From a virus, in IMG/VR virus record IMGVR_UViG_3300035034_000479, positions 1 through 36,313 of that record: a DNA stretch of 36,313 nucleotides. One strand, 5' to 3'. Positions 7,651 through 36,313 of the stretch are shown piece after piece. A program made the translations under genes and the position numbers. The notes under the pieces were generated by a model that did no database searches, was not told the DNA's origin, and worked only from the letters and a program-made list of their open reading frames with translations. Positions within the stretch are counted from its first letter, which is position 1, and each line of letters begins with the position of its first letter.

Positions 7651-8853
7651 CTATTCCTCGACCGGCGCCGGGTTCACCAGCGTCTGAATCGTCATTTCAA
7701 TTTCGGCCACGTCAGTCGTCAGCCAATTCACTTCAAGGCGATCCACGGTTGATCGCACCAGGGGGCACCATGACACGCGGCAAGTCGCCGGTAAATCCTG
7801 TTCCCATGGATCGACAAAGGTAACGACCGTGTTGCCGGTATCGAGCGCCATGCTTGCGATCCGGTTCACCTGGTACTGACCATCAGGGAACGTCACCATG
7901 ACCATGTTGTAAACAGGCGATCCGGCGTACCCTGCGTGAACGTCAGCACCTTCGACCGTGAAGGCCGACTCGGTTGCCAAAGCCCCGGCCCCGATGATCC
8001 GAAGATCGCGTTGCCATGTCGGCATGAAGAACGATCCACGGCGCCCCTTGGCCCACAGGAAGTGCGCGATCATCAGTTCTGTGGCTTCACGGGTTCGCGG
8101 GTTGAAGGTAAGCCGATTCTGCATGGTCGAATACGCGACAGGGGTGCCGACCGCAGACACCCCGAAACCCGCGTCCACGATTTCCCGTTCTTCCGTGATC
8201 TTGATCCGGGGCGGGCCATTCCAGTTCGGCTTTTCCAAGAACACCGGCAACCCTTCAAACAGCACGTCGCTTCGCTGTGGATAAACCTGTGTATCGCTTC
8301 CGGGCACCACATCGAACTTCAACGTCGCTTCGAGAAGATCAGTGGTTTCCGCCACAAAATCTATCGTGTCCTGCGCCCGCGCCCGATAGGCAAACGTGAT
8401 CGTTCCGCCCGACACTTGTTCGGACGCCACAGGATCGAAAAGCAGGATTTCATCGGCATCCACGGCTTCAATTTCAGAGACTTCATAGGCCTGCCCATTG
8501 AACAGGATGACCGCCGTGCCGGGCACAGCCCAGAAAGGTGCGTTGCCGTCCAGATAGATCGCCGACTCCCCGATAGCACAGCCCACGTCGATTCGTGCCG
8601 TGCGCCATGTGACCGGCAGGACAAAGGGTTCATTCTGATCCTTGTGGATATCTGCCAGCATCCGAGTCGCCGCGTCAGGCCGGAACCACGATCTGAAATT
8701 CAGATCGACCCGTGCTGTTTGGCGCCGGGCTTCACGCTGTTCCGTGCCGTCACGGCTTGTCATAACCACAGTGTCAAATTCATAGGACACGCTGACGGCT
8801 GTTCGCCAGTTTGGCGTTGATGCCGCGATCCGACCGATACGTTGAACCACCAT
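7651..8853 (-). CDS. Phage tail protein, distal-tail-like (400 residues)
   Basis: The most likely start is ATG 8853, overlapping the tape measure stop as TGATG; a GTG one codon upstream is possible. The product (VSVSYEFDTVVMTSRDGTEQ, REARRQTARVDLNFR, then VLPVTWRTARIDVG) resembles the family found between the tape measure gene and the BR0599 gene in YuA-like and related siphophages. It appears to contain two similar beta-rich halves: DFVAETTDLLEATLKFDVV marks the centre and EINWLTTDVAEIEMT-type residues (VNWLTTDVAEIEMTIQTL) mark the end. By position it is a distal tail or baseplate-ring protein linking tube to tip. The family assignment is by pattern only. Confidence 0.7.
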   Translation of the reverse strand: MVVQRIGRIAASTPNWRTAVSVSYEFDTVVMTSRDGTEQREARRQTARVDLNFRSWFRPDAATRMLADIHKDQNEPFVLPVTWRTARIDVGCAIGESAIYLDGNAPFWAVPGTAVILFNGQAYEVSEIEAVDADEILLFDPVASEQVSGGTITFAYRARAQDTIDFVAETTDLLEATLKFDVVPGSDTQVYPQRSDVLFEGLPVFLEKPNWNGPPRIKITEEREIVDAGFGVSAVGTPVAYSTMQNRLTFNPRTREATELMIAHFLWAKGRRGSFFMPTWQRDLRIIGAGALATESAFTVEGADVHAGYAGSPVYNMVMVTFPDGQYQVNRIASMALDTGNTVVTFVDPWEQDLPATCRVSWCPLVRSTVDRLEVNWLTTDVAEIEMTIQTLVNPAPVEE

Positions 8854-22176: not shown

Positions 22177-22418
22177 CCCGTACCCCAAAATCTCATTGGT
22201 TTACCGCCCCTGCAAAGGCCAAGCCGGTATTCCATTTCAGTGATCCATGCGCGAAGCCGGTCCACATTCGCGGCGGCAAACTCCACACGTTCCCCATTCT
22301 GATCGACAACGACTTTCGCCTTGTTGCCCATGAGGATTTCTTTCAGCGCAGCTTTTGCATCAGCCAAATCGACCAACATTGCAGCGCGTTCTTCTGTGGT
22401 CAGCGTACAGTTCGCCAT
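22173..22418 (-). CDS. W: Head-to-tail joining protein gpW-like
   Basis: The product is 81 residues, compared with 68 for lambda gpW. The sequence (TTEERAAMLVDLADAKAALK ... VDQNGERVEFAAANVDRLRA ... ITEMEYRLG) has the helix, beta-hairpin, helix layout of gpW, with the V-x-Y/F-A-A/S-x-N-V-D-x-L motif. It binds the portal and helps close the filled head. It lies between terminase and portal as in lambda. The start follows the terminase stop by three bases. Confidence 0.87.
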   Translation of the reverse strand: MANCTLTTEERAAMLVDLADAKAALKEILMGNKAKVVVDQNGERVEFAAANVDRLRAWITEMEYRLGLCRGGKPMRFWGTG

Positions 22419-22421
22419 GAC

Positions 22422-24584
22422 TTATCCCAAACCCTTCGCCAGTTCCGCCAGACTATACTTGCGCTTCCTGGCCGCGTCAAAGGGCTTGGTTTGCTCGACC
22501 GGATTGAACACCATGTCGTTTTGATCCCATTCCGCAGCCCAGCCGGGCGGGTATTCCCAATGGATGCCCTTCAAATTGACAAAAGGCAACAGGCATGTTG
22601 CGAAATGGTATGAGAACAAATCCCAGCTTTCGTTTCTGAAACGCTTGGGATTGATCCAACCTTTCGCCGGGTCTTTGATTTCGACCGTAAGTTCGGTGTA
22701 AAACGAATCAGCCAAACCGACCGGGAAATTGAGCCGACCACCGGGTTCGGTCCTGTCCAGGGCGTTATTCAAAACGTCCTTTGCCATGTTCGAATTGATG
22801 AACATGACGGGGATTTCACCGCGCGCCCCGGCGTTCTTGTCTTTGCGCTGGGAGTCTGGAAAGCGGATTTCCACATGCGGCGCCGTGGGTGTTGATGACC
22901 CTTTCAACAGCAAGAACCGGCTGGCAAACTCTTGCGACCAGATATATTCGCCCTTGTCTTCCAGCACATCAACTTCGTCATCATCGCCGCGCCGCAGCCA
23001 CCGATAGAAGTCATATGCGTTCATCGTCACGCCTTCCCGGCCACCCGAGTCGCAGACCGTGAACTTGATCTGCATGTGCCGACCGGACTCGTCGTTCAAG
23101 GGGTACGTCTTGCCCAGAACTTCTTCGCCCAACAGCTTCCAATCTTCGGGGTGCGATCCGGGGTTCACCCACAGGCGTTCCCCGTCATCATCGAGCCGCC
23201 GTGACTTCCTGATATCGAACCTGTCTATCAGGTAACGATCCCCGTTCATCGCCACACCCATGACTTGCACCACGAAGCGGTTCTTCTGCACGTCAATGGC
23301 CGCTGTGAGGAACCGCACACCTTCGGGCACCTTGCCAAGCCAATCCTGCTTGGCCGTCGCCTTGATCGTTTCAGGAGATCGCAGGGACGCCAGATTCTTC
23401 GGGATATAGGGCTTGCCCTGATCGGTGTTGATCGTGGATTTCAGCAGCTTTTCAGAGCCGTTGGCTTCATAGGTGCGTTCGGCCACGATGTAGTTGAACA
23501 CCAGCGTTTTCCATGTGGCAAACGCAGCGGCCACGCCCTTCAACCAGAAACTTGCCGAAGTGGACCGGATCGCCACGCCGCGCATTTCGTTGTTCGGCAA
23601 CCAGATTTGGCCGTCTTTCACCCAACGCCCGGCCAAGTTCATTTCGTGCTTACTCGGCATCAGCCCGCCCGCATCATGGGGGTATCGAGTATCGCAATGG
23701 GGGCAGGCCAGTTCAGCCTGTTCCGCCGATTCCATGGCGTCTGCGCTATCGGGATACCGCAACAATTCAAAGTCGGGTTCGAAAGCCCCTTTGCATTTCG
23801 GGTTCACGCAACGCCAATACCAGCGCCGCCGATCCCCGTTGTTGTAAAGCGGGATGATGCCGTCAGTTGTCGGGATCGCTTCATGTGCCGTCGTCGGGGT
23901 GTACTTCGGATCGTCCACTTCAAAGCCGGGTGAAGATTCAGCCACGGTCATGCCGAAAGTCTTGAACGTGGTTGCGCGCTTTCGGGCAAGCGAAAAAGGA
24001 TCGCCTTCTTTGTCCACGTCCTGCGACATGCGATCATAGTCTGTCAGCCAAAGTCGCGGGATCGGCTTTCCCGAAAGTTCGTTGATCGTCGGCCAAGAAA
24101 GCGTCAACAGCATCCCGCTTTTGTAATGCTTATCGAACACGTTGTCGGCATCACGGCTTTGGATTAGCTGGTGTCCAATTTCGGGGCTGTGGCGATGAAG
24201 CCTATCAACCCGTCGCATCGAGAAGTCGCGGGCGGTTGTATTGGACGGGCAAATGACCATCATATCCGCAGGATCGCATCGGGCGCTATATCCGATCCAG
24301 TTCATAACCATGTCAGTTTTGCCGCACTGTGCCGGGCCAACAAAAATCATTGACGTAAATGCCGTGCTATTCAGCAAGTTCATAGGCTCTACAAGATACG
24401 GGGTTTTGTCGTTCGACCAATCGCCAACGAAAGCGCCGGGGTTATTTATCTTCCGATACTTCTCCGCAGCTTCGGAAACCGTAAGCCTTTCCGGTGGCCG
24501 CGCAGCTTCTGCCGATTCAACAACGATTGATTCCAGAGTGTGCGTTCTGACCGGCAATTCCGGCATAGCTATCATCGTGTTCAT
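22422..24584 (-). CDS. A: Terminase large subunit (gpA family)
   Basis: This is a 720-residue packaging motor of the lambda gpA type. The N-terminal approach (ERLTVSEAAEKYRKINNPGA) is followed by Walker A GPAQCGKT (residues 83-90), then MVICPSNTTARDFSMRRVDR. A zinc-finger-like set (CVNPKCKG ... CPHCDTRYP) and the nuclease segment beginning FLTAAIDVQKNRFVVQV, with CDSGGREG, follow. The C-terminus contains ESWDLFSYHFATCLLPFVN. It cuts concatemeric DNA and pumps it into the procapsid through the portal. The start overlaps the upstream stop (ATGA). Confidence 0.93.
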   Translation of the reverse strand: MNTMIAMPELPVRTHTLESIVVESAEAARPPERLTVSEAAEKYRKINNPGAFVGDWSNDKTPYLVEPMNLLNSTAFTSMIFVGPAQCGKTDMVMNWIGYSARCDPADMMVICPSNTTARDFSMRRVDRLHRHSPEIGHQLIQSRDADNVFDKHYKSGMLLTLSWPTINELSGKPIPRLWLTDYDRMSQDVDKEGDPFSLARKRATTFKTFGMTVAESSPGFEVDDPKYTPTTAHEAIPTTDGIIPLYNNGDRRRWYWRCVNPKCKGAFEPDFELLRYPDSADAMESAEQAELACPHCDTRYPHDAGGLMPSKHEMNLAGRWVKDGQIWLPNNEMRGVAIRSTSASFWLKGVAAAFATWKTLVFNYIVAERTYEANGSEKLLKSTINTDQGKPYIPKNLASLRSPETIKATAKQDWLGKVPEGVRFLTAAIDVQKNRFVVQVMGVAMNGDRYLIDRFDIRKSRRLDDDGERLWVNPGSHPEDWKLLGEEVLGKTYPLNDESGRHMQIKFTVCDSGGREGVTMNAYDFYRWLRRGDDDEVDVLEDKGEYIWSQEFASRFLLLKGSSTPTAPHVEIRFPDSQRKDKNAGARGEIPVMFINSNMAKDVLNNALDRTEPGGRLNFPVGLADSFYTELTVEIKDPAKGWINPKRFRNESWDLFSYHFATCLLPFVNLKGIHWEYPPGWAAEWDQNDMVFNPVEQTKPFDAARKRKYSLAELAKGLG

Positions 24585-25288
24585 AGAAGGGACTCCGCTT
24601 CGGCATCAAGTTTCACTTCTGGTATTTGGACATAGGATTCTTCCACGCCGCCGTGCAAGGCCATCAGCGCAGGAAGATCATCGAGTTGCGGCCCGCTCTG
24701 CTTTTCCTTCATCTTCCGAACCAGGGCGTCATAAAGTTCCTGTTGAAGACCGTCCACAAGAACCCGAAGTTTGTCACGCTGCGGTTCTGTCAAACCGACT
24801 TCGGTTTCAAGAGCGTCTTCCCATAGCTGCATGGTGAATTTCAGGGTCTGGAAGGTGCCGCCCAGAACGTCGCGGATTTTGTCGGTGTGCCAAAGCTGAC
24901 CAGCGTTTTCCATCCACTTCTGTTGCTTCAACATGGCATCCCAGAAGGCTTGCTGCATGGTCGAAGGCATCCCGCCCTTCTTGATCGCCTTCAAGAAGTC
25001 TGACGGGCTGACCTTCGGGGGCACCAGATATGGGGCGGCTTCTTTCAAAAGATATGTCCGACCGCGAAGCCCGTTGCCCGTTTCCTTGCCTTCGGTCAGA
25101 ACCGGGCAATCGGAAAGGCGACGTTTCACGTCATCGACTTTCATGCCAAAGACATTCGCCAACCACGCGGCGGTGACACCCGAAAGGGCTTCTTCCACAG
25201 GCGCAGTTTTGGTGTTCTGCCCGCCAATCGGTTGCATCCGGTTTAACTGAACATGATGATCCAACGCGCTGATTTTTCCATTGGTCAT
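24581..25288 (-). CDS. Putative small terminase subunit (Nu1 position)
   Basis: The start at ATG 25288 makes an ATGA overlap with the helicase stop and has GGAG nine bases upstream; an ATG five codons earlier is less likely. This gives 235 residues. Residues about 30-70 (TAAWLANVFGMKVDDVKRRL ... CPVLTEGKETGNGLRGRTYLL) look like the winged HTH of Nu1/DUF1441-type proteins. Helical segments follow (MQQAFWDAMLKQQKWMENAG, EPQRDKLRVLVDGLQQELYD) that could oligomerise. It would bind the packaging site and recruit the large subunit. The C-terminus DAEAESLL matches the acidic SLL tails of four replication proteins in this phage. Confidence 0.75.
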   Translation of the reverse strand: MTNGKISALDHHVQLNRMQPIGGQNTKTAPVEEALSGVTAAWLANVFGMKVDDVKRRLSDCPVLTEGKETGNGLRGRTYLLKEAAPYLVPPKVSPSDFLKAIKKGGMPSTMQQAFWDAMLKQQKWMENAGQLWHTDKIRDVLGGTFQTLKFTMQLWEDALETEVGLTEPQRDKLRVLVDGLQQELYDALVRKMKEKQSGPQLDDLPALMALHGGVEESYVQIPEVKLDAEAESLL

Positions 25289-26805
25289 GCCGCGATTCTC
25301 CATGTGCGACCAAGCCTAGCCTTGACCGCGTTCGTAATTCTATCTTGCGTTATTGTCCGACCTTTCAATACAGACAATACGTTTTCGTCAGCCGTCCCGC
25401 GACTGATAATCCGATGAAGGAACACTTTGTCGCTCTTTTGTCCAGATCGGTGCAGCCGCTTGATGAATTGCAGGTATAATTCAGCCGACCAAGTGAGTCC
25501 GTACCAAACTGCGATGTTCGAACCGAACTGGAAGTTTAGACCATGCCCCGCGCTTGCCGGGTGAGTCAAGAGCATCTTGATTTTGCCAGCGTTCCAATCT
25601 CGCATGTCATTCGGACTATCGCCGTAAACCCTGCAATACGGGAACTTCTTTTTGATCGCGGCTTTGTCGAATTGAAAGCTGTAAGCCACAATTACGGGTC
25701 TGCCATTTGCTTCTTCCATAATGGATTCGAGTGCATCGAGTTTCTGGTTATGGACAGGTATAGCTTCTTTTTCGCTTGTATAAATTGACCCATTTGCCAG
25801 TTGCAGAAGTTTTCCCGTAAGAACGCCGCGATTTACCGCTTCGATATATTCTTCATCACCAGCTTTGTTGACCAATTCAATAGCAGACTCCTTTTCAAAC
25901 TCCCTATAGATACGCATCGCTTTCGGCGGCAACGTGACTTTATGATCTATCTCGATCAAAGGTGGGAGTGAAAGATAATCGTCAGATCGAAGACTGAAAA
26001 ATATGTCGGAAATCCGGCCCATGATTTCTTGTTCCGCGCCGACACGCGGTTCAAAGACTTTGGTGTATCGGTCTTCGATAAACCAACGCTTCTGGTACGC
26101 CGTCATGGACGTGCCCAGGCGCTCCCCGTCTTCAAGCAGGGAAATCGGCCCGTACAGGTCGATCAGCCCGTTTGAGGCCGGTGTGCCTGAAAGTTCCACG
26201 ATCCGCTTAAAACGCGGCCTGTGGGCGCGCAGGATGCCCAATTCAGACAGAGCGGCTTTCTTCCCCGATCTGATCTGTTTCTTGGTCTGGTACACGCGGG
26301 TCATGCCGCGCTTGTGCCTGGACGCTTCATCATAGATCAGCATGTCGAAGGGCCACGCCCGGCCCTGGAATATGTCGTGCAGCCACCGCAGGTTTTCCCG
26401 GTTGATGATCGTGACTTGGGCCGGGGAGTATTTCAGGGCCGCTTGTCGTTCTTCGGCGGTGCCCGTCACCACCCGGAACGTGATATCCCGAACAAAGGCC
26501 CATGTGCGAAATTCTTCCGGCCACGTTTCTTCGGCCACGCGCAAAGGGGCAACGATCAGAGGGCGGCGCACGATGCCAGCACGAATCAACTTCTGCATGG
26601 CGAACAAGGCCGATCCGGTCTTGCCCAGCCCCATTTCAGCGCCAAGCAGAACGCCCGGCAATTCCAGAATCTTGTTCGCCATCCAAATCTGATACTCGCG
26701 CATATCTTCTTCGGTCAGCGTTCTTTCGGGCGGGCCGTACAACAGGTTCAGGGCTTCCTGATCTGTCATAACCTTGTGAGTCACGATCTTCTTCTGACGG
26801 GCCAT
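25285..26805 (-). CDS. SNF2-family DNA helicase/translocase
   Basis: The product is 506 residues with two RecA-like domains. Motif I is GAEMGLGKT (55-63), motif Ia is VAPLRVAEETW, motif II is DEAS (159-162, where DEAH is more usual), motif III is LSGTPASN (205-212), and motif VI is QFIKRLHRSGQ near 450. This single-unit SNF2 helicase is common in phages with the PolA/DUF2815/DUF2800 replication set. It is presumed to remodel DNA forks or remove proteins from DNA. The start overlaps the VRR-NUC stop (TAATG), and the stop overlaps the terminase small subunit start. Confidence 0.92.
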   Translation of the reverse strand: MARQKKIVTHKVMTDQEALNLLYGPPERTLTEEDMREYQIWMANKILELPGVLLGAEMGLGKTGSALFAMQKLIRAGIVRRPLIVAPLRVAEETWPEEFRTWAFVRDITFRVVTGTAEERQAALKYSPAQVTIINRENLRWLHDIFQGRAWPFDMLIYDEASRHKRGMTRVYQTKKQIRSGKKAALSELGILRAHRPRFKRIVELSGTPASNGLIDLYGPISLLEDGERLGTSMTAYQKRWFIEDRYTKVFEPRVGAEQEIMGRISDIFFSLRSDDYLSLPPLIEIDHKVTLPPKAMRIYREFEKESAIELVNKAGDEEYIEAVNRGVLTGKLLQLANGSIYTSEKEAIPVHNQKLDALESIMEEANGRPVIVAYSFQFDKAAIKKKFPYCRVYGDSPNDMRDWNAGKIKMLLTHPASAGHGLNFQFGSNIAVWYGLTWSAELYLQFIKRLHRSGQKSDKVFLHRIISRGTADENVLSVLKGRTITQDRITNAVKARLGRTWRIAA

Positions 26806-27080
26806 TACAATTCCAAAATCTGCCGCGCACGGGCGAAGGTTTCAACCACATGCACTTCGGCACCAGCCGCTTTCATATCATCGCGGTTGCGGCCCTGGAT
26901 ACGGGCCAGATGGCCTTTGCCGTCAGGCCGCTTGAACTCGATCCACACCGTTCGGCCCCCTTTGATGAACACGCGATCCGGGGCGCCACGACGCCCCGGC
27001 CACGCGACCTTTCGAACAAACCAGCCATCGGCTTCGGCTTCTTCGATGATGGTCAATTCAAGATATGCTTCAAGCGCCAT
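26805..27080 (-). CDS. VRR-NUC domain nuclease
   Basis: ATG 27080 gives 91 residues, a normal length for a stand-alone phage VRR-NUC protein; the same frame extends upstream only over sequence that is out of pattern. Motifs are RRGAPDRVFIKGGR (Asp35), VWIEFKRP (Glu48, Lys50) and IQGRNRDDMKAAGAEVHVV (Gln62), the PD-(D/E)XK catalytic layout. Such phage enzymes are thought to cut branched DNA such as Holliday or flap structures. It overlaps the DUF1653 gene by 11 bases and lacks its own strong ribosome site, so it is probably coupled. Confidence 0.85.
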   Translation of the reverse strand: MALEAYLELTIIEEAEADGWFVRKVAWPGRRGAPDRVFIKGGRTVWIEFKRPDGKGHLARIQGRNRDDMKAAGAEVHVVETFARARQILEL

Positions 27081-27375
27081 CGTCAACAGGGGGTCTGCGC
27101 AGGCCGGTTGTGGGTGCCGTGGTGACGGGCTTACCGGTTTTTGGCAGGCCGACAGCCCCGTGACGTGGCTTTTCGTTGAAGTGGGTAAACCGACCGTCGA
27201 AAAATTCTTCCACTGGCCGGGTCCATGTATGCCGTTCTGTTCCCGCGTCTTGTGCGAACGTCTGATACACCACGACCATTCCCAAAGTCGCTTCGACCTT
27301 TGCGAAACAAACAATCTGGTAAAGATGCCCTGTTTTCGTGTGGACCCAAATCAGCCTTTGATATTCTTTTTTCAT
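27070..27375 (-). CDS. DUF1653-like small protein
   Basis: The product is 101 residues. The first ~70 (RLIWVHTKTGHLYQIVCFAK ... EATLGMVVVYQTF ... WTRPVEEFFDGRFTHFNE) match the DUF1653 pattern: 'H K/T G x Y x I ... A ... E ... VVYQ ... W x RP ... F x D G R F'. This small SH3-like domain is found in bacteria and phages and its function is unknown. The C-terminal 30 residues are Pro/Thr-rich and overlap the VRR-NUC start. AAAGGA lies eight bases before the ATG. Confidence 0.8.
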   Translation of the reverse strand: MKKEYQRLIWVHTKTGHLYQIVCFAKVEATLGMVVVYQTFAQDAGTERHTWTRPVEEFFDGRFTHFNEKPRHGAVGLPKTGKPVTTAPTTGLRRPPVDDGA

Positions 27376-27378
27376 TGT

Positions 27379-29493
27379 TCAATCCTTTATGAACATTTGT
27401 GAAGTGAAACCTTCGGAACCCAAAGGCATATCGGGCGCCCATTTTGGAGGTTCTTCCATACACTCGATAAGGGTTTTCAAATCCCTTTCCGCGAATTGGA
27501 TTTTGCTTAGGCTCACAATTTGGTCATGCACATGAAGCCTGATATCCAACCCGCGCTTATCTGCCAGCTTCATTCCATGTGCCAGAAGGTCGCGCGAAAT
27601 CGCTTGGTCAGCGTTTTCTGTCAACTTGCCACCGTGGGTACTCAGCCGCACCCATTGCTTCTTGTCGTTCAATCCATCGTAAGTGATCGTCGGTATCATG
27701 TCGCCCCACGGGGCGCGCTTGCGCTCGATCCGGGGCCTCACATAATGCAGCGCCCGACCGGACGGCAAATTCATTCGCATGAAGTTCCCGACAATATCAA
27801 AAGTGACAACACCATAACCGGAACCATAAGACGTTGGCTTTCCGGTTTTGATTGTGCGCTTGGCGGCGTTCTCGATGCCTTTCCAGTACGTTTTGACTTC
27901 GTGAAACTCCGTTCTGAAAGTCGTGATCGAGTGCGCCGAATCTTCCTTCGTGAAATGTTTGACGCCCATATTCCAAGCATAGCCAAGAAGTCCGGTCGCA
28001 CCCCGTTCGCCGGTCTTCCTGTCTATGTATTCGTCGCCCGGCCCCATCTGGTATCCGGCACCAAGAGTACCGGGTTTTGCGATAGTCCGTTTCGACTTGT
28101 CGCCAAGCACTTTGTATTCGTGCCAGAGTTGTTCGTATGGGATTCCATAAAGCAGTTCCGCAAAGGCGATGTAGGGATCGCGCTTCAATCGGTACACGTT
28201 CAAAATCTTTTCGCAAGCTGCCAGCCATCCCAGGGTCCGGTTCTCGATGGCGTTCAAATCGGCGTCACAGAAGATCATGCCTTCGGGGGCTTGCGCAGCG
28301 GGCCGGATCGTGGACGCCAGCACATCGAACACGTTGTCGTAAAGCAGCACCATCGCTTCACTGTCCAACACTTCGACATTGCGCGCATGTTCAACGATGT
28401 TCTTTTCCAGATACCATTCGGGCCGGGGCAGGTTCTGCGGCTGAAAAATCCGACCGGCCCAACGCCACGTCCTTTGCGCGCCGCAGAATTGCAGCGTGTT
28501 GCGCAGGTTGCCATCGGCACCCACGGCCATCAGGATCGCCTGATACTTCTTGATGGAAGTTCGCGCCGTTTCAAGCCGCAAATAGAGAACTTCTTTCAAA
28601 TCCTCATTCATCAAGTATTCTGACCATAGCTGATCGGACCAGCGTTCGGGCTTGTTCTTGAAGTAATCCAGCGAAGTCGTAATGCTGGATTTCTGGCAGT
28701 CATCAAAGATATACCCGTTCGCCTGCATCCACGGCAAAAGCTGTGCAGTCGAATTGGGGTTGTCCAGCCCTGTGATCTGACTCATAACGGCAAGCTGATC
28801 TTCCAACACCCGTTCGTATGTCTTCCAAGCGTTCTCGACCATCCGCATGTTCATCGGCAGACCGGCGCGGTTGACCTTCTGATCTAAGCGCCACAAATCC
28901 CATTCGTGATCAGGCATGGGTTGAAATTGTAAAAGACGGCGACGAATAGACGTTTCTGCCACAACGTCGCGACGGTTATATTCCAGATAATTTTCCCAAT
29001 CAGGAAGGTCATCGTACCAATGTGTTCGAATAACCCGACCAGCATCAGCTTTGCGACGGGAAATCTTAGTCTTGGAAAACTTATTGATAAGGCGAGTGCC
29101 GCTTTTGTCTTTCAAGTGTTCGTCATCAATGTTGATGATAGGGCCAGCATTTTGTAGTTTACCTGGTAACGAACACGCCATTCCCAAAATCATCGTGTCA
29201 AACCATTGCTCTAATTCAACAGGTAATCCTAGAACATGCTGCGATATCTGCATTTCAAATGCACTGTTCCAAGCCCATTTTTCAACGGCTGGATCGTGAT
29301 ACGCTTCAAGAAATTCTTTCGGTATGGATTCGCCCTGCGCATGATCCCATTGAACCACGTCACCATAATTTATCTGGTATGCACACATCAAAACTTCCGT
29401 AGAAGAATGATTGGCGTAAACGTCACTTCCGACTTTTAACAAATCAGTTTCTGAAAACGTTTCATAATCAAACGATATGAAATCTTTTGCCAT
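27379..29493 (-). CDS. polA: DNA polymerase, family A with 3'-5' exonuclease
   Basis: I prefer ATG 29493 (AAGG upstream; MAKDFISFDYETF is the usual family start), giving 704 residues; a GTG at 29586 is possible. Exonuclease motifs are FDYETF (Asp9, Glu11), WNSAFEMQI and EYNRRDVVAE. Polymerase motif A is CDADLNAIENR (~410), motif B is KRTIAKPGTLGAGYQMG (~465), and motif C is LHVHDQIV (~656). Motif C normally reads HDE; here the codon is CAA, so Gln replaces the second acidic residue. The phage-type enzyme with a short exo domain and no 5' nuclease usually travels with DUF2815 and DUF2800 genes, as here. It copies the phage genome. Confidence 0.93.
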   Translation of the reverse strand: MAKDFISFDYETFSETDLLKVGSDVYANHSSTEVLMCAYQINYGDVVQWDHAQGESIPKEFLEAYHDPAVEKWAWNSAFEMQISQHVLGLPVELEQWFDTMILGMACSLPGKLQNAGPIINIDDEHLKDKSGTRLINKFSKTKISRRKADAGRVIRTHWYDDLPDWENYLEYNRRDVVAETSIRRRLLQFQPMPDHEWDLWRLDQKVNRAGLPMNMRMVENAWKTYERVLEDQLAVMSQITGLDNPNSTAQLLPWMQANGYIFDDCQKSSITTSLDYFKNKPERWSDQLWSEYLMNEDLKEVLYLRLETARTSIKKYQAILMAVGADGNLRNTLQFCGAQRTWRWAGRIFQPQNLPRPEWYLEKNIVEHARNVEVLDSEAMVLLYDNVFDVLASTIRPAAQAPEGMIFCDADLNAIENRTLGWLAACEKILNVYRLKRDPYIAFAELLYGIPYEQLWHEYKVLGDKSKRTIAKPGTLGAGYQMGPGDEYIDRKTGERGATGLLGYAWNMGVKHFTKEDSAHSITTFRTEFHEVKTYWKGIENAAKRTIKTGKPTSYGSGYGVVTFDIVGNFMRMNLPSGRALHYVRPRIERKRAPWGDMIPTITYDGLNDKKQWVRLSTHGGKLTENADQAISRDLLAHGMKLADKRGLDIRLHVHDQIVSLSKIQFAERDLKTLIECMEEPPKWAPDMPLGSEGFTSQMFIKD

Positions 29494-29636
29494 TCGCGAT
29501 ACCTTGCGTTTATATTTTGCTGCGACCGGGCTTTCCGATCCTTCGGTTCTGGTTTGGTCCACCTTCCCCCTACTGCCCGGTTTCACACCCTGCCGCAGCA
29601 GGCCGGGACCGAAGCCCCAGCCTATCCTTTGAGGGC

Positions 29637-30293
29637 TTACAGCAAGCCGCTTTCGTCTTCCTGTTCTTCCTCGGGTCCGTCATCCTGACCAAGATCAGCA
29701 GCATCGCCAACCATGTCGTCAGTGAACTTGTCGTCGGCATTGGCCGGGGCCGCACCGAAGGCATCGCCGTCACGCAGAAACTGCACGATTTCGATACTGG
29801 CGTTGATCCGCTTGCCGTACTTGTTATCCTGTGCCCACAGGCGGATCAGAGCGTTCACATAGCACCCGCTGTAGGGGGCCATTTTCTGCCCCGCCACGGC
29901 TTCGATCCAGCTTCCGGTCTTGGCATCCTTGCGCGGCGTGATGATCTGTGGTGGCCGCGTCACAGGGGCGGCGGCAGACACATACAGCATCCCCTCATAC
30001 CCATCATAGGTTTCCAGATCGCCGTCACGCAGGCAAATTTTTTCGGGTTTCAGCTTGGGCCAGTCTTTCGGGTTGCTGCCCCACTTCTTGCCTTTGGCCT
30101 GATCGGCGGCGGCTTTCACGTTGGCAAGGTTGTTGAACTTGTCGCCCTTCTTCGGAATCAAGAAGGTACAGTTGTACGTTTCGCGCATCGAGCCGTCATC
30201 GTTCTCCTGTTCCTGCGGCTGGAACAAGTGCGCAAACGAAAGTCGCACGTCACGAAGCAGAACTTCGCCAATCACTTCTGGTTTTTCAGCCAT
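29637..30293 (-). CDS. DUF2815 single-stranded DNA-binding-like protein
   Basis: The product is 218 residues. The residues VLLRDVRLSFAHLFQP, ETYNCTFLIPKKGDK, then MLYVSAAAPVTRPPQIITP, and GCYVNALIRLWAQDNKYGKR match DUF2815, an OB-fold family equated with phage ssDNA-binding proteins (gp2.5-like) because of its genome context and acidic tail. The last ~25 residues are strongly acidic and end EDESGLL, similar in style to the acidic C-terminal tip of other SSBs that recruits partners. A GGAG site precedes the ATG. It sits between the nuclease and polymerase genes. Confidence 0.88.
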   Translation of the reverse strand: MAEKPEVIGEVLLRDVRLSFAHLFQPQEQENDDGSMRETYNCTFLIPKKGDKFNNLANVKAAADQAKGKKWGSNPKDWPKLKPEKICLRDGDLETYDGYEGMLYVSAAAPVTRPPQIITPRKDAKTGSWIEAVAGQKMAPYSGCYVNALIRLWAQDNKYGKRINASIEIVQFLRDGDAFGAAPANADDKFTDDMVGDAADLGQDDGPEEEQEDESGLL

Positions 30294-30303
30294 GTCATTT
30301 CTC

Positions 30304-31572
30304 CTAAAGCAGACTGTCAGTTTCTTCGCCCATTAGGGCATCCAACCGCGACATGCGGTCAGGTTTCGGATCGCGGCCATCCGTAGTCGGAACAAGCTGC
30401 GGCTTGGGTTCACCTTTTGCAACGAAATGATCGAACTTCTTTCGGTACGCAGCTTTGCCCACCCAACCCTCAACTTGCGTTGGGGATAAGAGTTTCTTCG
30501 TATAGGCGTCTTCTTTGCCCAACTGTTTCATTAAGACGATTTCCGCTTTGTCATCGTCTATCCAAGATCGCGGTGGATTTCTGCCGTCAACGAGCATCAT
30601 GCCTAGTGGCGGCTTTCCGTTCTCTGCATCGGAATACGCCTTTGCATGAATACGGTCATGGAATTTCTTTATCATATCCCAATGCAAAAGGAATTGGGAT
30701 ACCGCCTTCGGTGACATGACTTCCGGCATATCCATTTCGGCGTTTTCATCAAACTGCCGTTCCAATTCCTCATTCGTAACATCGAGTTTGGAAAGCACAA
30801 GATCGCGTTCCGCCGGGCACTTCCTGAATTGCGCCGCAGCACAGAACTTGCACTGATCGGGGCCGGGGATCAAGGGCGCATCGGGTTCGCGTGTGGCCGC
30901 AGCATCCTTCTTGATCTTGGCACCTTCGGCCAGGATCGTTCCCAGATCGGTCTTCCACAGCCCACCACCACCGGGCGCACGGGGCTGTTCGATCACGATC
31001 CAGACGGCGATACCATCTTCCCAAGGGTCATTCACGTTGCCGCCCTTCTGGATATGATCGTCTTCGAAATCCGCCGCAGCAAAGGTTGACCAACAGCCCA
31101 AGATATAGAGAATAGCCTGATCGTTCATTTCCGGTTGGACCGGGACGCCAGCGCCCCACTTCCAATCGAACACCACGATCCGGCGGTTTTCCAGATCGAC
31201 AATACAGGCATCAGACGTTCCGAACTCGCCTTCGCCAAGCCACGCCGAAAGGTCCAGCTTCTGTTCGACATACATTTCGGCGCAGTCGCCCATCAACGAC
31301 TCAAGGAAGTCTAAACCGGGCAACATTTTCCGCGCCATTTCAAGCGTGAACTCGATCAGGCCGTGTTGTTCGACCGTGCTTTTGCCACCGACCATCGTGT
31401 GAGGGTCAACGCCCAAGTCTAAGCTGATCGCGGCGAACTCATGGAAGACAGTTCCATACGCGGCTTCGATACCGGCGGTGTTCGGCAGATCGCGTGTCAT
31501 GCGAACAGAACCGGGGCACTTGCGATATCGGTGGGCCGATGACGGCCCTAGCTGCGAATGGAGTCCCGGCAT
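30304..31572 (-). CDS. DUF2800 Cas4/RecB-like PD-(D/E)XK nuclease
   Basis: The product is 422 residues. The N-terminus (LGPSSAHRYRKCPGSVRM ... AAYGTVFHEFA) and the core GTSDACIVDLENRRIVVFDW, KWG and NDQAILYIL give catalytic candidates His44, Asp121, Asp136, Lys138 and the QxxxY motif (Gln152, Tyr156). Cys19 with Cys241, Cys244 and Cys252 (CKFCAAAQFRKC) matches the four cysteines that hold an iron-sulphur cluster in Cas4/AddB-type nucleases. It probably processes DNA ends for recombination-dependent replication. The C-terminus is GEETDSLL. A GGAG site precedes the ATG. Confidence 0.9.
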   Translation of the reverse strand: MPGLHSQLGPSSAHRYRKCPGSVRMTRDLPNTAGIEAAYGTVFHEFAAISLDLGVDPHTMVGGKSTVEQHGLIEFTLEMARKMLPGLDFLESLMGDCAEMYVEQKLDLSAWLGEGEFGTSDACIVDLENRRIVVFDWKWGAGVPVQPEMNDQAILYILGCWSTFAAADFEDDHIQKGGNVNDPWEDGIAVWIVIEQPRAPGGGGLWKTDLGTILAEGAKIKKDAAATREPDAPLIPGPDQCKFCAAAQFRKCPAERDLVLSKLDVTNEELERQFDENAEMDMPEVMSPKAVSQFLLHWDMIKKFHDRIHAKAYSDAENGKPPLGMMLVDGRNPPRSWIDDDKAEIVLMKQLGKEDAYTKKLLSPTQVEGWVGKAAYRKKFDHFVAKGEPKPQLVPTTDGRDPKPDRMSRLDALMGEETDSLL

Positions 31573-31579
31573 GTTCGAT

Positions 31580-31813
31580 TTACTCCAACGACTTTTTCAG
31601 GTTCGCAATTTCGCCAGCGTACAAGTCGATTTCTTCTTCGACCGAATACTTTTCTTCAATCATCCCGATCCGCGTGTTTTGCAGATCGGAAATCCGGTTG
31701 TCGATTGCCTCAAGTTGACGATCCATCCCGGCCTTTTGCGCTTTCAGTTTCAGCACAAGGTCTTCGCGTAAAGCGATCAGCTTTTCCGGCGAGATTTTGC
31801 TTTTCTTGTCCAT
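31580..31813 (-). CDS. Small coiled-coil protein (77 residues)
   Basis: The product is almost entirely charged heptad-like helix (LIALREDLVLKLKAQKAGMD, then RQLEAIDNRISDLQNTRIGM and IEEKYSVEEEIDLYAGEIAN), predicting a parallel or antiparallel coiled coil. There are no catalytic motifs. AAAGGA lies nine bases before the ATG, and the next gene starts eight bases after its stop. It is unrecognised; by position it could be an accessory factor of the DUF2800 nuclease or a replication adaptor. Confidence 0.75.
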   Translation of the reverse strand: MDKKSKISPEKLIALREDLVLKLKAQKAGMDRQLEAIDNRISDLQNTRIGMIEEKYSVEEEIDLYAGEIANLKKSLE

Positions 31814-31831
31814 GTCAGTTGTCCTTTGAAG

Positions 31832-31864
31832 AAGGCGTGGGGCTTTGAAGCAACCCCACGCCTT
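31832..31864 (-). terminator. Hairpin in early operon (attenuator or processing site)
   Basis: An 11-bp perfect inverted repeat (AAGGCGTGGGG / CCCCACGCCTT) with an 11-base loop lies between the first and second leftward genes. The minus-strand 3' side is followed by CTTC rather than a run of T, so full termination is unlikely. It may attenuate transcription, acting as a control point for the whole leftward train, or stabilise the first transcript. Confidence 0.55.
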
Positions 31865-31879
31865 TGAAAGATGGACAGA

Positions 31880-32317
31880 TCAGAGCAACGATTCGCCGCC
31901 GGATTGTTCTTCTTCTTCGGCGCCATCGAACTCCGGGGTTTCCCCGGCTTCATACTGCGCCAGATAACCCAACGCTTCGGTGAAATTGGCCGCGTCAATC
32001 AGCGACACCTTTTTCGCGCCGAAATAATCCACGATGGATTTCACCTTGTCCTTCGCGGCTTCCCGGTCATCTTCGTCACCGGCTTTCAGGAAAGCGCCGA
32101 ACTTCGCAACGAAATCATCAACCGTCATTTCTTTCGGTTTGGCTTTCGCGGCGGGCTTTGCGGCGGCGGCAGGCTTTGCAGCGGCGGCGGGCTTTGCGGC
32201 GGCGGCAGGCTTTGCAGCGGCGACAGACTTGCCGGAGGAAGTTGCGATGGCATCAAGGCGCGCGGTCTGTTCCTTGATCGCGGCTGTGAGGGCTTGGATA
32301 TCGTCTTCGAGGGCCAT
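31880..32317 (-). CDS. First leftward gene: Ala-Lys-Pro repeat protein with acidic tail
   Basis: ATG 32317 (AAAGGA seven bases upstream) gives 145 residues; a TTG five codons earlier is less likely. Residues 1-30 form a short helix (DDIQALTAAIKEQTARLDAI). Residues 32-61 are five tandem six-residue units of the type AAAAKP, like the basic flexible tails of H1-like or HU-like DNA-binding proteins. Residues about 64-125 are a compact helical domain (MTVDDFVAKFGAFLKAGDED ... VKSIVDYFGAKKVSLIDAAN). The end is acidic and terminates GGESLL. The family is unknown. Its place first in the early operon and its tail suggest a DNA-associated replication or regulatory role. Confidence 0.75.
   Translation of the reverse strand: MALEDDIQALTAAIKEQTARLDAIATSSGKSVAAAKPAAAAKPAAAAKPAAAAKPAAKAKPKEMTVDDFVAKFGAFLKAGDEDDREAAKDKVKSIVDYFGAKKVSLIDAANFTEALGYLAQYEAGETPEFDGAEEEEQSGGESLL
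32135..32224 (-). repeat. In-gene 18-bp tandem repeat encoding AAAAKP units
   Basis: Five 18-bp units encode VAAAKP, AAAAKP three times and AAKAKP. The DNA alternates between two near-identical spellings (GGCTTTGCGGCGGC and GGCTTTGCAGCGGC on the plus strand). The copy number could change by slippage and lengthen or shorten the linker. Confidence 0.85.
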
Positions 32318-32341
32318 TTGGCATCCTTTCAATCAGAATCA

Positions 32342-32355
32342 GGGGCACATGCCCC
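32342..32355. promoter_or_regulatory. 14-bp GC-rich palindrome in leftward leader
   Basis: GGGGCA and TGCCCC flank a two-base centre. The site lies just downstream of the expected start of the leftward transcript and upstream of the first gene. The loop is too short for a stable RNA hairpin, so a protein-binding site is the better guess. Confidence 0.35.
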
Positions 32356-32364
32356 GGAACCCCT

Positions 32365-32392
32365 TTGTTATCTACAACAACAGCATTGTCAA
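32365..32392 (-). promoter_or_regulatory. Candidate leftward early promoter
   Basis: On the minus strand a perfect TTGACA (32392-32387) lies 16 bases from TAACAA (32370-32365), about 48 bases upstream of the first leftward gene. The -35 box overlaps the -35 box of the rightward promoter, making a compact divergent switch. The -10 match is weak. Confidence 0.5.
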
Positions 32393-32414
32393 CAACCTTT
32401 TGACTGTGTATAGG
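32386..32414 (+). promoter_or_regulatory. Candidate rightward promoter for the HTH and primase-helicase genes
   Basis: TTGTCA (32386-32391) and TATAGG (32409-32414) are 17 bases apart. Transcription would start near 32421 and keep the ribosome site AGGAG (32430-32434) of the HTH gene. A second overlapping pair, TTGACT (32400) and TATGAA (32423), also has 17-base spacing, but it would start past that ribosome site and so is less likely. Confidence 0.55.
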
Positions 32415-32422
32415 TCACAGTC
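32402..32422. promoter_or_regulatory. Operator-like palindrome over the rightward promoter
   Basis: GACTGTG and CACAGTC form a perfect 7-bp inverted repeat around a 7-base spacer containing the TATAGG -10 box. A dimeric HTH protein binding here would block the rightward promoter. The adjacent Cro-like gene is the obvious candidate for autoregulation. This is an inference from position. Confidence 0.55.
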
Positions 32423-32443
32423 TATGAACAGGAGTATCAAGGA

Positions 32444-32695
32444 ATGGCGACTTTTCTTTCACCAAACGAAGCAGGCACCGAACTTCACCGTTTGATCCTG
32501 GTGGCCGTGCCACCGAACCCGGAAGGTGCGAAGACGATCACCCACGCAGCGAAGTGCATGGGTATCAACAAGGCGACGATCTGGCAATGGATCAAGCTGG
32601 ACCGGATCCCCCCCACGCGGGCGCGTGAAATCGTGGAAATGGGCCAGGGCCGGGTCAGTCTCGACCAACTCCACCGTTTCGTCTACGCTTCTTGA
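32444..32695 (+). CDS. Cro/YdaS-like HTH transcription regulator
   Basis: The product is 83 residues. Residues about 30-65 (ITHAAKCMGINKATIWQWIK) form a helix-turn-helix, followed by IPPTRAREIVEMGQGRVSLD. This follows the YdaS/Cro pattern of 'AA ... G ... S/A-x-W-Q-W ... V/IP ... RA ... IE ... G RV'. It is the first gene of the rightward operon, divergent from the leftward replication train, with a palindrome across its promoter. It likely represses one or both divergent promoters. No partner CI-type repressor is seen in the window. AGGAG sits nine bases before the ATG. Confidence 0.82.
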   Translation: MATFLSPNEAGTELHRLILVAVPPNPEGAKTITHAAKCMGINKATIWQWIKLDRIPPTRAREIVEMGQGRVSLDQLHRFVYAS

Positions 32696-32789
32696 TTCTG
32701 GACACCGGGCAAGCCTGACAGCTTAACCCAGATTCTGGCCTAAATCCCGCCGCTTGCGTCGGGGTAACAACCTTCGGCGCGGGGCACTC

Positions 32790-35570
32790 ATGGCAAATAC
32801 CAACACCAAAATCATTCACTTTTCGAGGGGGCGAAAACAGAACCTTGGCAAAGTGAAGAACCTGACAGTCGGCCTACCGGCCTTCATAGAGTTGTTCAAG
32901 ATACCCCTTCAAACCCCTGAAACATTTGCAGAATACCTGAAAATGACAGACGCGCAACAGAGCGCGTTGAAGCAGTTGAACGGGTTCTTCTACCGATCAC
33001 AGGTCACAGGCGGGCGACGGGTCAAGGGCGCGGCCAAACCCGCCGATATAGCGACCTTGGACTTCGACCATGCAACCGTAGGTTTTCTAAACCGGATCAA
33101 GAAGGGCCTGATTCTCCGGGGCATCAAGTTCATCGTTCACAGCACCCGGCGGCACACGCCAGAGAGCCCACGACTCCGAATGATCGTGTTTTTGAAGACG
33201 CCCGTAAACAACGATATCTACGGTGCCGTAAGCCGGATTTTGGCTTTCAGTATCGACCCCGAAATGGAAATGATCGACCTTGTTTCGTTCCGCACGGAAC
33301 AGATGATGTATATGCCAACGATCAGTTCCAATATCAAATATGAGTTCTACGAATCACCCGGATCAAAGTTGCTTGATTGGGAAGTGATGCTTGAAGACTT
33401 CTCGAATGAGAACGGCGATTGGACCGATCTTGACAACCTGCCAAAAGCGCCGGGTGAAACGATCCGAAATACCGCAGACAAGGCCGAAAACCCCGAAGAC
33501 AAAGAAGGCCCGGTTGGCGATTTTTGCAGAACGTGGAATGTGATCGAGGCGATTGATTACTTCGATCTGCCCTATCAAGCCGTTGATGAATACTCGACCA
33601 AGCCCCGATACACCTACACGGGCGGTACGACGCGCAACGGAGCCATTGTCGAAGACGATGGGCTGTTCCTGACCAGCTATCACGGCTCGGACCCTGTTGG
33701 GGGCCGTACCGTGAACGCTTGGGATTTGGTCAAGGCCCACAAGTTCGGCGATCTGGACGCGCAAGAAGACACCGACACGCCCATGGGCAAGCGGCAGTCG
33801 TGGAAGGCGATGCTGGACTTGGTGAAGGAAGACAAGAACTATCTGCGTTCTGTCATGCAGTCGAACTATGACATGCGGGCGATCTTCGATGATCTGGATG
33901 AAGAAACGCTAGGGATCGTTCATCAGGAAGTGGGGGATGGCCTTGATGCCGCGCAACCATCCCCCGGAAGACCCACCAGTGACGAAAGACCCTTCACGGG
34001 CGAATCTATAGCCGATGACGGGGTTTTAGACAAGGACGCTCTTGATATTTTGGGCGTAATACCACGGGATGATGACGACTTCGACATTTTGGGTCTGTCA
34101 GAGATTCCCCGACGATCAGAAACGGCCATTGTTCGGGTCTTGCCGCCGGTCGAAGATGGATGGTTCACCAAGCTGGAATGGTCCGGTCAGCAAATCCTGA
34201 ACAGCCTGCCAAATATCACTTCGATCCTGCAAAATGATCTGCGGCTTCGCGGGTGCATCGAGTATAACGATTTCCGCCGAACCATCGTCACGCGCAAGGC
34301 GTTGAAGACCAAGCTGCCGATGGTGCCGAAGGTCGAAATCAAAGACAAGGTGCATGGCGATATGTGGAACGACACGATGACCACATATGCTCGAACATTG
34401 CTCGAAACGGCCAACGGCAAAGGCAACGCCGGATACGGCATGAGGGTTTCGGACAGGGACATAAACGGGGCGATCAACACCACGGCAATGCGGTGGCGGT
34501 TCCACCCGATCAAGGACGCCATAGAAGGTCATGTGTGGGATGGGATCGAGCGGGCTGAAACCCTGTTCATAGACTTCCTTGGGTGCCCTGATACCCCGTA
34601 CACGCGCGCTGTGTGCCGTACATGGCTTCTGGCGGCTGTGACGCGCATCTATGAACCCGGCCACAAGTTCGACTTCGTGCCGATCCTGGAAGGCGCCCAG
34701 GGTATCCGCAAATCGACCTTCATCAGAACCCTTTCCCTTGGGTTCGCCGGAAACCTGACGGCCAGTTTCCACGATTCGAACAAGCTGATCGAACAAATCA
34801 CAGGGCGCTGGATCATCGAGATTCCAGAACTCGGCAACATGGGCCGATCCGTGATCGAAGACGCCAAGGCGTTCTTCTCGATGACCGAAACCACGTTGCG
34901 ATTGGCATGGGAAAAGCGGGCCGACGAATACAAGCGGCAATGCGTCTTCATGGGTTCGACCAACAAAGAAAATTACCTGACCGACACGACCGGCAACCGC
35001 CGCTTCTGGCCGATCAAGGTCATGGCCGAACAGATCGACACAGAGCGCCTTGAAGCGGTCATGCCACAGGTATGGGCCGAAGTCTTGGTGATGTACCATG
35101 CGGCCCGTGAGGCGCAGCCCCACGGCGATCTTCCGCTGTATCTGACCGGGGCCGAAGCACAGGCCGAAGCGTCCGACAACCAATCGCAGCGGCAACAGGA
35201 TGACGACGCAACGGTGTGGGCTGGCATGATCGAAGACTTCCTGAACACACCCTTCAAGACGACGCCGGAAAGCAAGTCATGGCTGTTCATCGAGCGCACA
35301 TGCTATTTGCAAATTATGAAGGAAGTTCTCGAATTGAGAACCATCCAACAGCCGAAAGGGCTGTACGAAACGATCAAGCGGACCATGGGTTTGATCGGTT
35401 GGGAATTGGGCGAAAAGACCGTGAGGCTTCCAGTGTACGGCCCTCAAAAAGCCTTCGTGCGGAAACGCCCGATTAGCGCCCACAACCGGGCGAAGCTGAT
35501 CCGAGAACATATCGACCGGATCAGCTTCAAATCGGGGGATGAAGATGATGACCCCGAAAGCCTCTTGTGA
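32790..35570 (+). CDS. Primase-polymerase-like and VapE/SF3-type helicase fusion
   Basis: ATG 32790 with GGGG five bases upstream gives 926 residues; a TTG 12 codons earlier has no such site. The N-terminal third looks like an archaeo-eukaryotic primase domain: IATLDFDHATV (Asp91, Asp93 as metal ligands), FIVHSTRRHTPESPRLRMIV (His117) and later FRTEQMMYMPTIS. The C-terminal half is a VapE (virulence-associated E) ATPase with Walker A GAQGIRKST (635-643), Walker B-like RWIIEIPEL, sensor GSTN (722-725) and TGNRRFWPIKV. It should prime and unwind at the phage origin. It is transcribed opposite to the rest of the replication genes. The last residues are DEDDDPESLL. A terminator follows directly. 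Confidence 0.9.
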   Translation: MANTNTKIIHFSRGRKQNLGKVKNLTVGLPAFIELFKIPLQTPETFAEYLKMTDAQQSALKQLNGFFYRSQVTGGRRVKGAAKPADIATLDFDHATVGFLNRIKKGLILRGIKFIVHSTRRHTPESPRLRMIVFLKTPVNNDIYGAVSRILAFSIDPEMEMIDLVSFRTEQMMYMPTISSNIKYEFYESPGSKLLDWEVMLEDFSNENGDWTDLDNLPKAPGETIRNTADKAENPEDKEGPVGDFCRTWNVIEAIDYFDLPYQAVDEYSTKPRYTYTGGTTRNGAIVEDDGLFLTSYHGSDPVGGRTVNAWDLVKAHKFGDLDAQEDTDTPMGKRQSWKAMLDLVKEDKNYLRSVMQSNYDMRAIFDDLDEETLGIVHQEVGDGLDAAQPSPGRPTSDERPFTGESIADDGVLDKDALDILGVIPRDDDDFDILGLSEIPRRSETAIVRVLPPVEDGWFTKLEWSGQQILNSLPNITSILQNDLRLRGCIEYNDFRRTIVTRKALKTKLPMVPKVEIKDKVHGDMWNDTMTTYARTLLETANGKGNAGYGMRVSDRDINGAINTTAMRWRFHPIKDAIEGHVWDGIERAETLFIDFLGCPDTPYTRAVCRTWLLAAVTRIYEPGHKFDFVPILEGAQGIRKSTFIRTLSLGFAGNLTASFHDSNKLIEQITGRWIIEIPELGNMGRSVIEDAKAFFSMTETTLRLAWEKRADEYKRQCVFMGSTNKENYLTDTTGNRRFWPIKVMAEQIDTERLEAVMPQVWAEVLVMYHAAREAQPHGDLPLYLTGAEAQAEASDNQSQRQQDDDATVWAGMIEDFLNTPFKTTPESKSWLFIERTCYLQIMKEVLELRTIQQPKGLYETIKRTMGLIGWELGEKTVRLPVYGPQKAFVRKRPISAHNRAKLIREHIDRISFKSGDEDDDPESLL

Positions 35571-35580
35571 CTAGATTTAG

Positions 35581-35604
35581 TGGCCCTTCGGGGCCATTTT
35601 TTTT
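35581..35604 (+). terminator. Intrinsic terminator after the primase-helicase gene
   Basis: TGGCCC, a TTCG tetraloop and GGGCCA are followed by eight T residues. This is a textbook rho-independent terminator ten bases after the stop codon. Confidence 0.93.
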
Positions 35605-35660
35605 GTGCTGCACTTTGGATTACCGTGGCTTACCAGAAAGGTGGTGTATACTGACCGAAA

Positions 35661-35947
35661 TGTAAACGTCCAATTACACCCAAGTTTACAAAGGCTATGT
35701 CACTGTTTTCCTTACCGTAAAATCCGGTTTGTGTTAAAACTGTAAACCTGTAAACGCTAAGACCCTATTACTATATCCTGCGTACCACACGGCTCGGATT
35801 CCTCTGCTTCTCTTTTTCTCTAGCCGTAAGTTTAGATTCTATGTTTACACTATTACAAAAAACAGCTTTCATATAATGAAAACAGCTACTTATCTATGTA
35901 ACCGGGGCATGTAAACGTGCATGATTTGTAAACGCCGCAGGTTTACA
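35661..35947. repeat. Cluster of eight TGTAAAC sites (candidate origin iterons or operators)
   Basis: TGTAAAC occurs forward at 35661, 35741, 35749, 35910 and 35927, and as GTTTACA at 35684, 35843 and 35941. Eight exact 7-mers in 287 bases is far above chance. The pairs at 35661/35684 and 35927/35941 are inverted (the second with a 7-base spacer), and 35741/35749 are tandem with a one-base gap. The AT-rich setting next to the primase-helicase gene suits a replication origin recognised by a phage protein; repeated operators are the alternative. Confidence 0.65.
35859..35887. repeat. AAAACAGCT direct repeat with an enclosed palindrome
   Basis: AAAACAGCT occurs at 35859-35867 and 35879-35887, 20 bases (about two helical turns) apart. 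Between them TTTCAT and ATGAAA flank ATA as a perfect 6-bp palindrome (35867-35881). This AT-rich block could be a melting element or binding site within the putative origin. Confidence 0.5.
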
Positions 35948-36007
35948 TTTGAAGGAATTTGGCACGTTCCGGCGATTTTGTGAAAAACCGGGTCCACAAT
36001 GGTTCAC

Positions 36008-36045
36008 CATGGGGCACTACGGTAATATAGGTCAACCGTGCTGAC
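36008..36045. repeat. 38-bp imperfect repeat, copy 1
   Basis: It starts CATGGGG, contains GGTAATATAGGTCAAC and ends CTGAC. It matches the copy at 36247-36284 at 28 of 38 positions without gaps. The shared blocks CATGGGG, GGT-ATAT-GGTCAAC and CTGAC suggest a conserved protein site. Confidence 0.6.
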
Positions 36046-36111
36046 GCATCACCCCCTGAACCACAACATATAGTTTCGGCACCCGATGGCCCCATAGGCC
36101 GCGATCATCGA

Positions 36112-36136
36112 AAACTGAACTGAACGGTTCAGTTTA
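36112..36136. promoter_or_regulatory. Operator-like palindrome, copy 1
   Basis: This 25-bp site is identical to the one at 36146-36170. Its core is AACTGAAC, G, GTTCAGTT (36118-36134), an 8-bp perfect inverted repeat. An extra ACTGAAC half-site is fused on the left, giving three half-sites. This form is typical of operators for TetR-type or other dimeric repressors; the binding protein is not identified. Confidence 0.65.
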
Positions 36137-36145
36137 GATATCGGG

Positions 36146-36170
36146 AAACTGAACTGAACGGTTCAGTTTA
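36146..36170. promoter_or_regulatory. Operator-like palindrome, copy 2
   Basis: This site is an exact copy of the 25-bp one at 36112-36136, with start points 34 bases apart and a nine-base spacer (GATATCGGG). Its right arm overlaps the -35 region of a possible rightward promoter, as expected for repression by occlusion. Confidence 0.65.
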
Positions 36171-36190
36171 CTTTTGGGCCACCCTATAAC
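36162..36190 (+). promoter_or_regulatory. Possible rightward promoter under operator copy 2
   Basis: TTCAGT (36162-36167), a 17-base spacer and TATAAC (36185-36190) form a weak -35 and a good -10. The promoter would read toward the right edge, where no complete gene is visible in the window. Confidence 0.35.
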
Positions 36191-36246
36191 CTGGACCTTA
36201 TGATCCCCCTATGCTCGATAACAAAAACTTATGGTGTATGGGAACA

Positions 36247-36284
36247 CATGGGGAACATGGGTGATATTGGTCAACAAAACTGAC
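36247..36284. repeat. 38-bp imperfect repeat, copy 2
   Basis: This copy ends in a palindrome: ATTGGTCA (36266-36273) and TGACCAAT (36281-36288) are perfect 8-bp arms around a 7-base spacer. Copy 1 keeps only the inner GTCA/TGAC of these arms. Confidence 0.6.
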
Positions 36285-36313
36285 CAATTTCCGAGATTTT
36301 TGGTAGAAAATGG

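Follow-up and report, generated by a model that had tools for sequence, protein, structure and literature searches.

An array of short repeats at positions 35661-35947 of the window (the whole 36,313-base stretch of viral DNA analysed here) is very probably the replication origin of a Chi-like phage (Casjensviridae), one that would be built and used like the rep-ori replicons of SaPIs and PICIs. Origins of this kind have so far been described mainly in such phage satellites. The first-pass annotation had proposed an iteron-type origin next to the primase-helicase gene. At the sequence level, such an origin, with the neighbouring primase-helicase as its initiator, is strongly supported by the position of the repeats, by the homology of the helicase to SaPI-type Rep proteins, and by a layout shared with most relatives, including phage Chi. 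From this homology and layout, we further infer that the initiator binds the repeats, that the DNA between them melts, and that replication is of the bidirectional theta type.

The TGTAAAC array and the adjacent proposed initiator gene

The array consists of eight copies of TGTAAAC, five on the plus strand (35661, 35741, 35749, 35910 and 35927) and three on the minus strand (35684, 35843 and 35941), exactly as the first-pass annotation had described them. The heptamer has 14 copies in the 36,313-base record, compared to 2.1 expected (none of 100 shuffles reaches 14), and 8 of the 14 fall within the 287 bases of the array. With the other six copies of the record as the background rate, eight copies in 287 bases have a probability of ~6e-16, which becomes ~2e-11 once every start position is allowed for. 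The array also holds the top count of any 7-mer per 287-nt segment of the record (8, with a runner-up of 5). Three one-mismatch neighbours, at 35645 (plus strand, TGTATAC), 35830 (minus strand) and 35897 (plus strand), may represent weaker sites.

The iterons are arranged in two groups around a core. The left group (35661-35755) contains the sites at 35661, 35684, 35741 and 35749, with the TGTATAC neighbour just before it, and the right group (35910-35947) contains those at 35910, 35927 and 35941, the last two of which form TGTAAAC-N7-GTTTACA. The core between them (35756-35909), which we propose as the melting region, includes one inverted iteron (35843-35849, minus strand) together with the one-mismatch sites at 35830 and 35897. 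Its AT content is 61%, with a peak of 69% at 35820-35905, as compared to 45% in the primase gene. The AT peak is a feature of the wider core only, since the largest gap between iterons of the window is not AT-richer than its flanks (0.57 versus 0.60). Also within the core lies a direct repeat of AAAACAGCT (35859-35867 and 35879-35887) around the palindrome TTCATATAATGAA; this element, spanning 35859-35887, had been pointed out before and is indeed present. In the core, polypyrimidine strand bias did not reach significance (17 versus 10, P 0.49).

The array stretch is non-coding and begins 91 nt past the stop codon of the gene for a primase-polymerase/VapE fusion, which agrees with its earlier placement directly downstream of this gene. 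An intrinsic terminator of the primase operon, comprising an 8-pair stem plus a T run, is located at 35579-35606 on the plus strand. The gene itself (32790-35570, plus strand) encodes a PrimPol/SF3-type (VapE) primase-helicase of 926 residues, the proposed initiator, which matches the Pfam VapE-like domain (1.9e-67) and PHROG 256 DNA helicase (3e-182). In profile, single-sequence and fold searches alike, the first-ranked solved structure is 7PDS, PriRep1 with dsDNA (profile 4.3e-107; phmmer 5.9e-51; Foldseek 7e-32, TM 0.80 on target), and the homology spans the helicase and the C-terminal winged-helix part of the window protein. The entry title of 7PDS names PriRep1, which we take to be the SaPI1 Rep, and the molecule name reads 'similar to D. 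nodosus vapE'. In the AlphaFold model, residues ~806-893 (35205-35468, plus strand) form a winged helix (H806-818, E836-838, H839-846, H858-868, E871-880, E884-891; pLDDT ~75-90), which we propose as the iteron-binding domain.

In the mechanism that we envisage, the PrimPol-helicase made from the upstream gene would bind the two groups of TGTAAAC iterons through its C-terminal winged helix, and helicase rings would assemble there, as hexamers by analogy with SaPI Rep. The DNA between the two groups, an AT-rich core with its peak at 35820-35905, would melt, and the PrimPol domain would prime. The phage DNA polymerase A and a Gp2.5-like ssDNA-binding protein would then extend the forks on a genome already circularised through its cos ends.

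A switch in GC skew at the array, suggested earlier as a further mark of an origin, is absent; the sign changes at ~32.4 kb, at the divergence of transcription and away from the array. Gene orientation accounts for the skew, and we dropped it as an origin marker. It is uninformative on the origin because the contig ends 366 bases past the array.

Arrays in relatives and in phage Chi

Scanning viral and genome contigs with single proteins returned no relatives, but alignment-based scans did find them, yielding 48 and then 80 loci. After duplicate removal, and with a mapped stop codon and no fewer than 200 nt of sequence beyond it required, the comparison comprised 100 relatives, in which a 7-mer array was called strong at a score of 8 or more. 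Directly 3' of the primase gene, 65 of the 100 non-redundant relatives carry a strong 7-mer array that occupies both strands and is specific to the lineage; these loci share ancestry and hence are not independent events, although their iterons nonetheless differ. Among control windows, 79 of 18,054 contain such an array, and 14 loci have any such window elsewhere. Upstream of the primase gene, a strong array was found in only 2 of 100 relatives, and the downstream cluster is the strongest of its locus in 73 of 100. An earlier set of relatives gave a similar picture, with a downstream array in 32 of 44. The remaining 35 of the 100 lack a strong array directly downstream of the primase; some have a cluster 1.5-3.7 kb farther on, and in others none was found. 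Displaced strong clusters of short repeats were observed, relative to the primase stop, at +2540 (L084), +3660 (L044), +2540 (L118), +2020 (L133) and +1500 (L091), and such clusters in loci without an adjacent array are possibly displaced origins. In a further relative (L036, ~8380-8768), an 8-nt unit (GACCGCCT) is tandemly repeated about 35 times at the contig end past the primase.

What is conserved among relatives with the same primase is the layout and not the word TGTAAAC. The conservation expected by the first-pass annotation therefore holds for the place of the array and fails for its sequence, each lineage having its own iteron, for example GGTTGGAAC in L014, CGGTAGAA in L015, CCTGTCACA in L021 and CCGGCACA in L033. 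For this reason, a search for TGTAAAC itself in relatives would wrongly refute the origin. Likewise, searching the intergenic DNA as such among phages gave no match, a null result that is misleading because the iteron sequence changes between lineages. Some preference is nevertheless visible, in that TGT occurs within 28 of 55 strong iterons, as compared to 9.4 expected when the letters are shuffled, and TGTAAAC itself is used by two distant lineages (L120 and L108), where copies overlap the helicase gene at its 3' end. The arrays of relatives usually form two groups around a core of mostly 80-140 bp, and in 25 of 28 loci the AT content of this core exceeds that of the iteron flanks (P 8e-6). 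The same gap and array follow a VapE-type gene in Corynebacterium, Listeria, Acutalibacter, Fusobacterium and Paenibacillus phages; no clear array was seen in the corresponding gap of Bacteroides phage BC669P2 and Coprococcus phage NatCom_10489.

Once overall relatedness is accounted for, the iteron covaries weakly with the C-terminal domain (partial Mantel r 0.11, P 0.02). For the helicase domain the covariation is equally strong, and we rejected a covariation specific to the C-terminal domain. With dozens of pairs of initiator and iteron available in nature, the code by which this domain recognises its sites can be tested directly.

In Salmonella phage Chi (Casjensviridae), the primase and polymerase genes are placed between the left cos, a 12-base site (GGTGCGCAGAGC), and the terminase (PMC4342425). 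As proposed for the window, the PrimPol-helicase adjoins the left cos and an array lies between the primase and cos: ten TGTAAC sites on both strands extend from +236 to +711 relative to the primase stop, and cos follows at +930. The related word TGTAACC occurs 8 times in the 15.5-kb piece that holds the primase-cos gap, as opposed to once in another 25.4 kb. Unlike in the window, the Chi helicase is of the subtype with PrimPol, PriCT_2 and DUF5906 and is not closely related to VapE, and an opposite-strand HTH gene stands in between. The Chi genome announcement does not mention an origin (PMC4342425), and within the open-access literature that we searched, we found no description of an origin for the Casjensviridae.

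Phage identity and probable genome end

Terminase similarity and gene order place the record, a genome fragment, in the Casjensviridae (Chi-like phages). Its large terminase shares 61% identity with that of Synechococcus virus S-ESS1 and is ~50% identical to the terminases of Achromobacter, Loktanella and Ruegeria phages, all Casjensviridae, and the gene order of the replication module matches this family. The genes for the Gp2.5-like ssDNA-binding protein, an exonuclease, polymerase A and an SNF2 helicase lie on the strand opposite to the primase-helicase. The latter is oriented toward the contig end, as is the gene of a YdaS/Cro-like HTH regulator (32444-32695, plus strand; Pfam YdaS_toxin 1.9e-07, P22_Cro 9e-4), which is found upstream of the primase and outside the origin.

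Many relatives' contigs stop 0.4-1.4 kb past the primase, probably because the physical genome end (cos) lies there. Seven of them (L015, L019, L020, L025, L026, L031 and L040) stop exactly at GCGCACCC of the Chi-like cos motif, and others stop a few tens of bases away at most. The last bases of the window (GAAAATGG) resemble the sequence immediately before this motif, and we therefore infer that the contig end (36290-36313) lies beside the physical genome end, no more than a few tens of bases from a Chi-like cos site, just short of whose expected position the contig stops. The 12-base Chi cos appears to be conserved across distant Casjensviridae with one variable base (GGTGCGCNGAGC, Chi strand; Chi L064 3731).

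Further repeats are present between the array and the contig end. The 25-nt, palindrome-bearing AAACTGAACTGAACGGTTCAGTTTA occurs in two perfect copies (36112-36136 and 36146-36170), 34 nt apart, which are possibly terminase-binding sites or another operator; L033 likewise has CTGAAC repeats near its array. In addition, a 38-nt direct repeat of 74% identity (36008-36045 and 36247-36284, 239 nt apart) is located near the inferred cos end.

Known replicons and alternative readings

The closest parallels are the rep-ori modules of SaPIs and PICIs (SaPI1 PriRep1, SaPIbov1 and EcCICFT073). In SaPI Rep, the C-terminal domain recognises iterons immediately 3' of its own gene (PMC7581432), and PICI origins have an AT-rich region between two sets of iterons (PMC6092414). 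The window shares with them a helicase homologous to PriRep1 (7PDS) with a predicted winged-helix C-terminus, the placement of the origin, here a proposed one, directly 3' of the initiator gene, and multiple short iterons whose sequence differs between elements (PMC6092414, PMC7581432). Their layout of two sets around an AT-rich region may be approximated in the window, where the AT peak falls within the core, yet this core also holds one iteron. Unlike these satellites, the window belongs to a tailed phage that brings a polymerase and packaging functions of its own, and its origin would sit after the primase gene and before the inferred cos end. More distant parallels include the putative SCCmec Cch2 origin, where the C-terminal domain of the helicase binds direct repeats just 3' of its gene (PMC7581432), although Cch2 has only three 5-nt iterons and a different helicase family. 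In phage P4 alpha/ori, the winged-helix C-terminus of the primase-helicase likewise binds origin repeats (as cited in PMC4234260), but the P4 primase is of the Toprim type. The crenarchaeal plasmid pRN1 also pairs a PrimPol-SF3-winged-helix initiator with an origin just 3' of its gene (PMC4234260), although that origin is one large stem-loop without iterons.

The last example raises the possibility that a structure rather than the repeats is recognised in the window. A stem-loop downstream of the PrimPol-helicase is known from pRN1 and its relatives, and possibly from Bordetella phage BIP-1 (PMC4234260), but the segment 35571-36000 folds no better than shuffled sequences (z -0.81), and repeats dominate it rather than one large hairpin, making an origin of this type extremely improbable. 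It is also very unlikely that the repeats are recognised by terminase, as cosB-type sites near the cos end. Such a role would fit the location of the array between the primase and the inferred cos end and the relatives' contigs that end at a Chi-like cos; however, the arrays of the Corynebacterium, Listeria, Acutalibacter, Fusobacterium and Paenibacillus phages follow VapE-type helicase genes inside replication modules, beside a nuclease gene, and the overlap of the TGTAAAC copies with the helicase gene in L120 and L108 argues in the same direction.

The main alternative named in the first-pass annotation was a multi-operator array for a repressor, either the HTH protein encoded at 32444 or another regulator, which would control transcription at the genome end. 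Several sites do stand in inverted pairs (35927/35941, with N7 spacing) and the HTH gene belongs to the same operon as the primase, but our analysis disfavours this explanation and we regard it as unlikely. TGTAAAC is absent from 21727-35660, which leaves both the divergent promoter and the HTH gene without a copy, no sigma-70-like promoter was detected in 35400-36313, and the arrays of relatives lie downstream and not upstream of the primase (65 versus 2 of 100). Moreover, a different palindrome, GACTGTG-N7-CACAGTC at 32402-32422, is present in the divergent promoter that separates the HTH gene from the leftward operon; it lies outside the proposed origin, contains no TGTAAAC, and is a candidate operator of the HTH protein.
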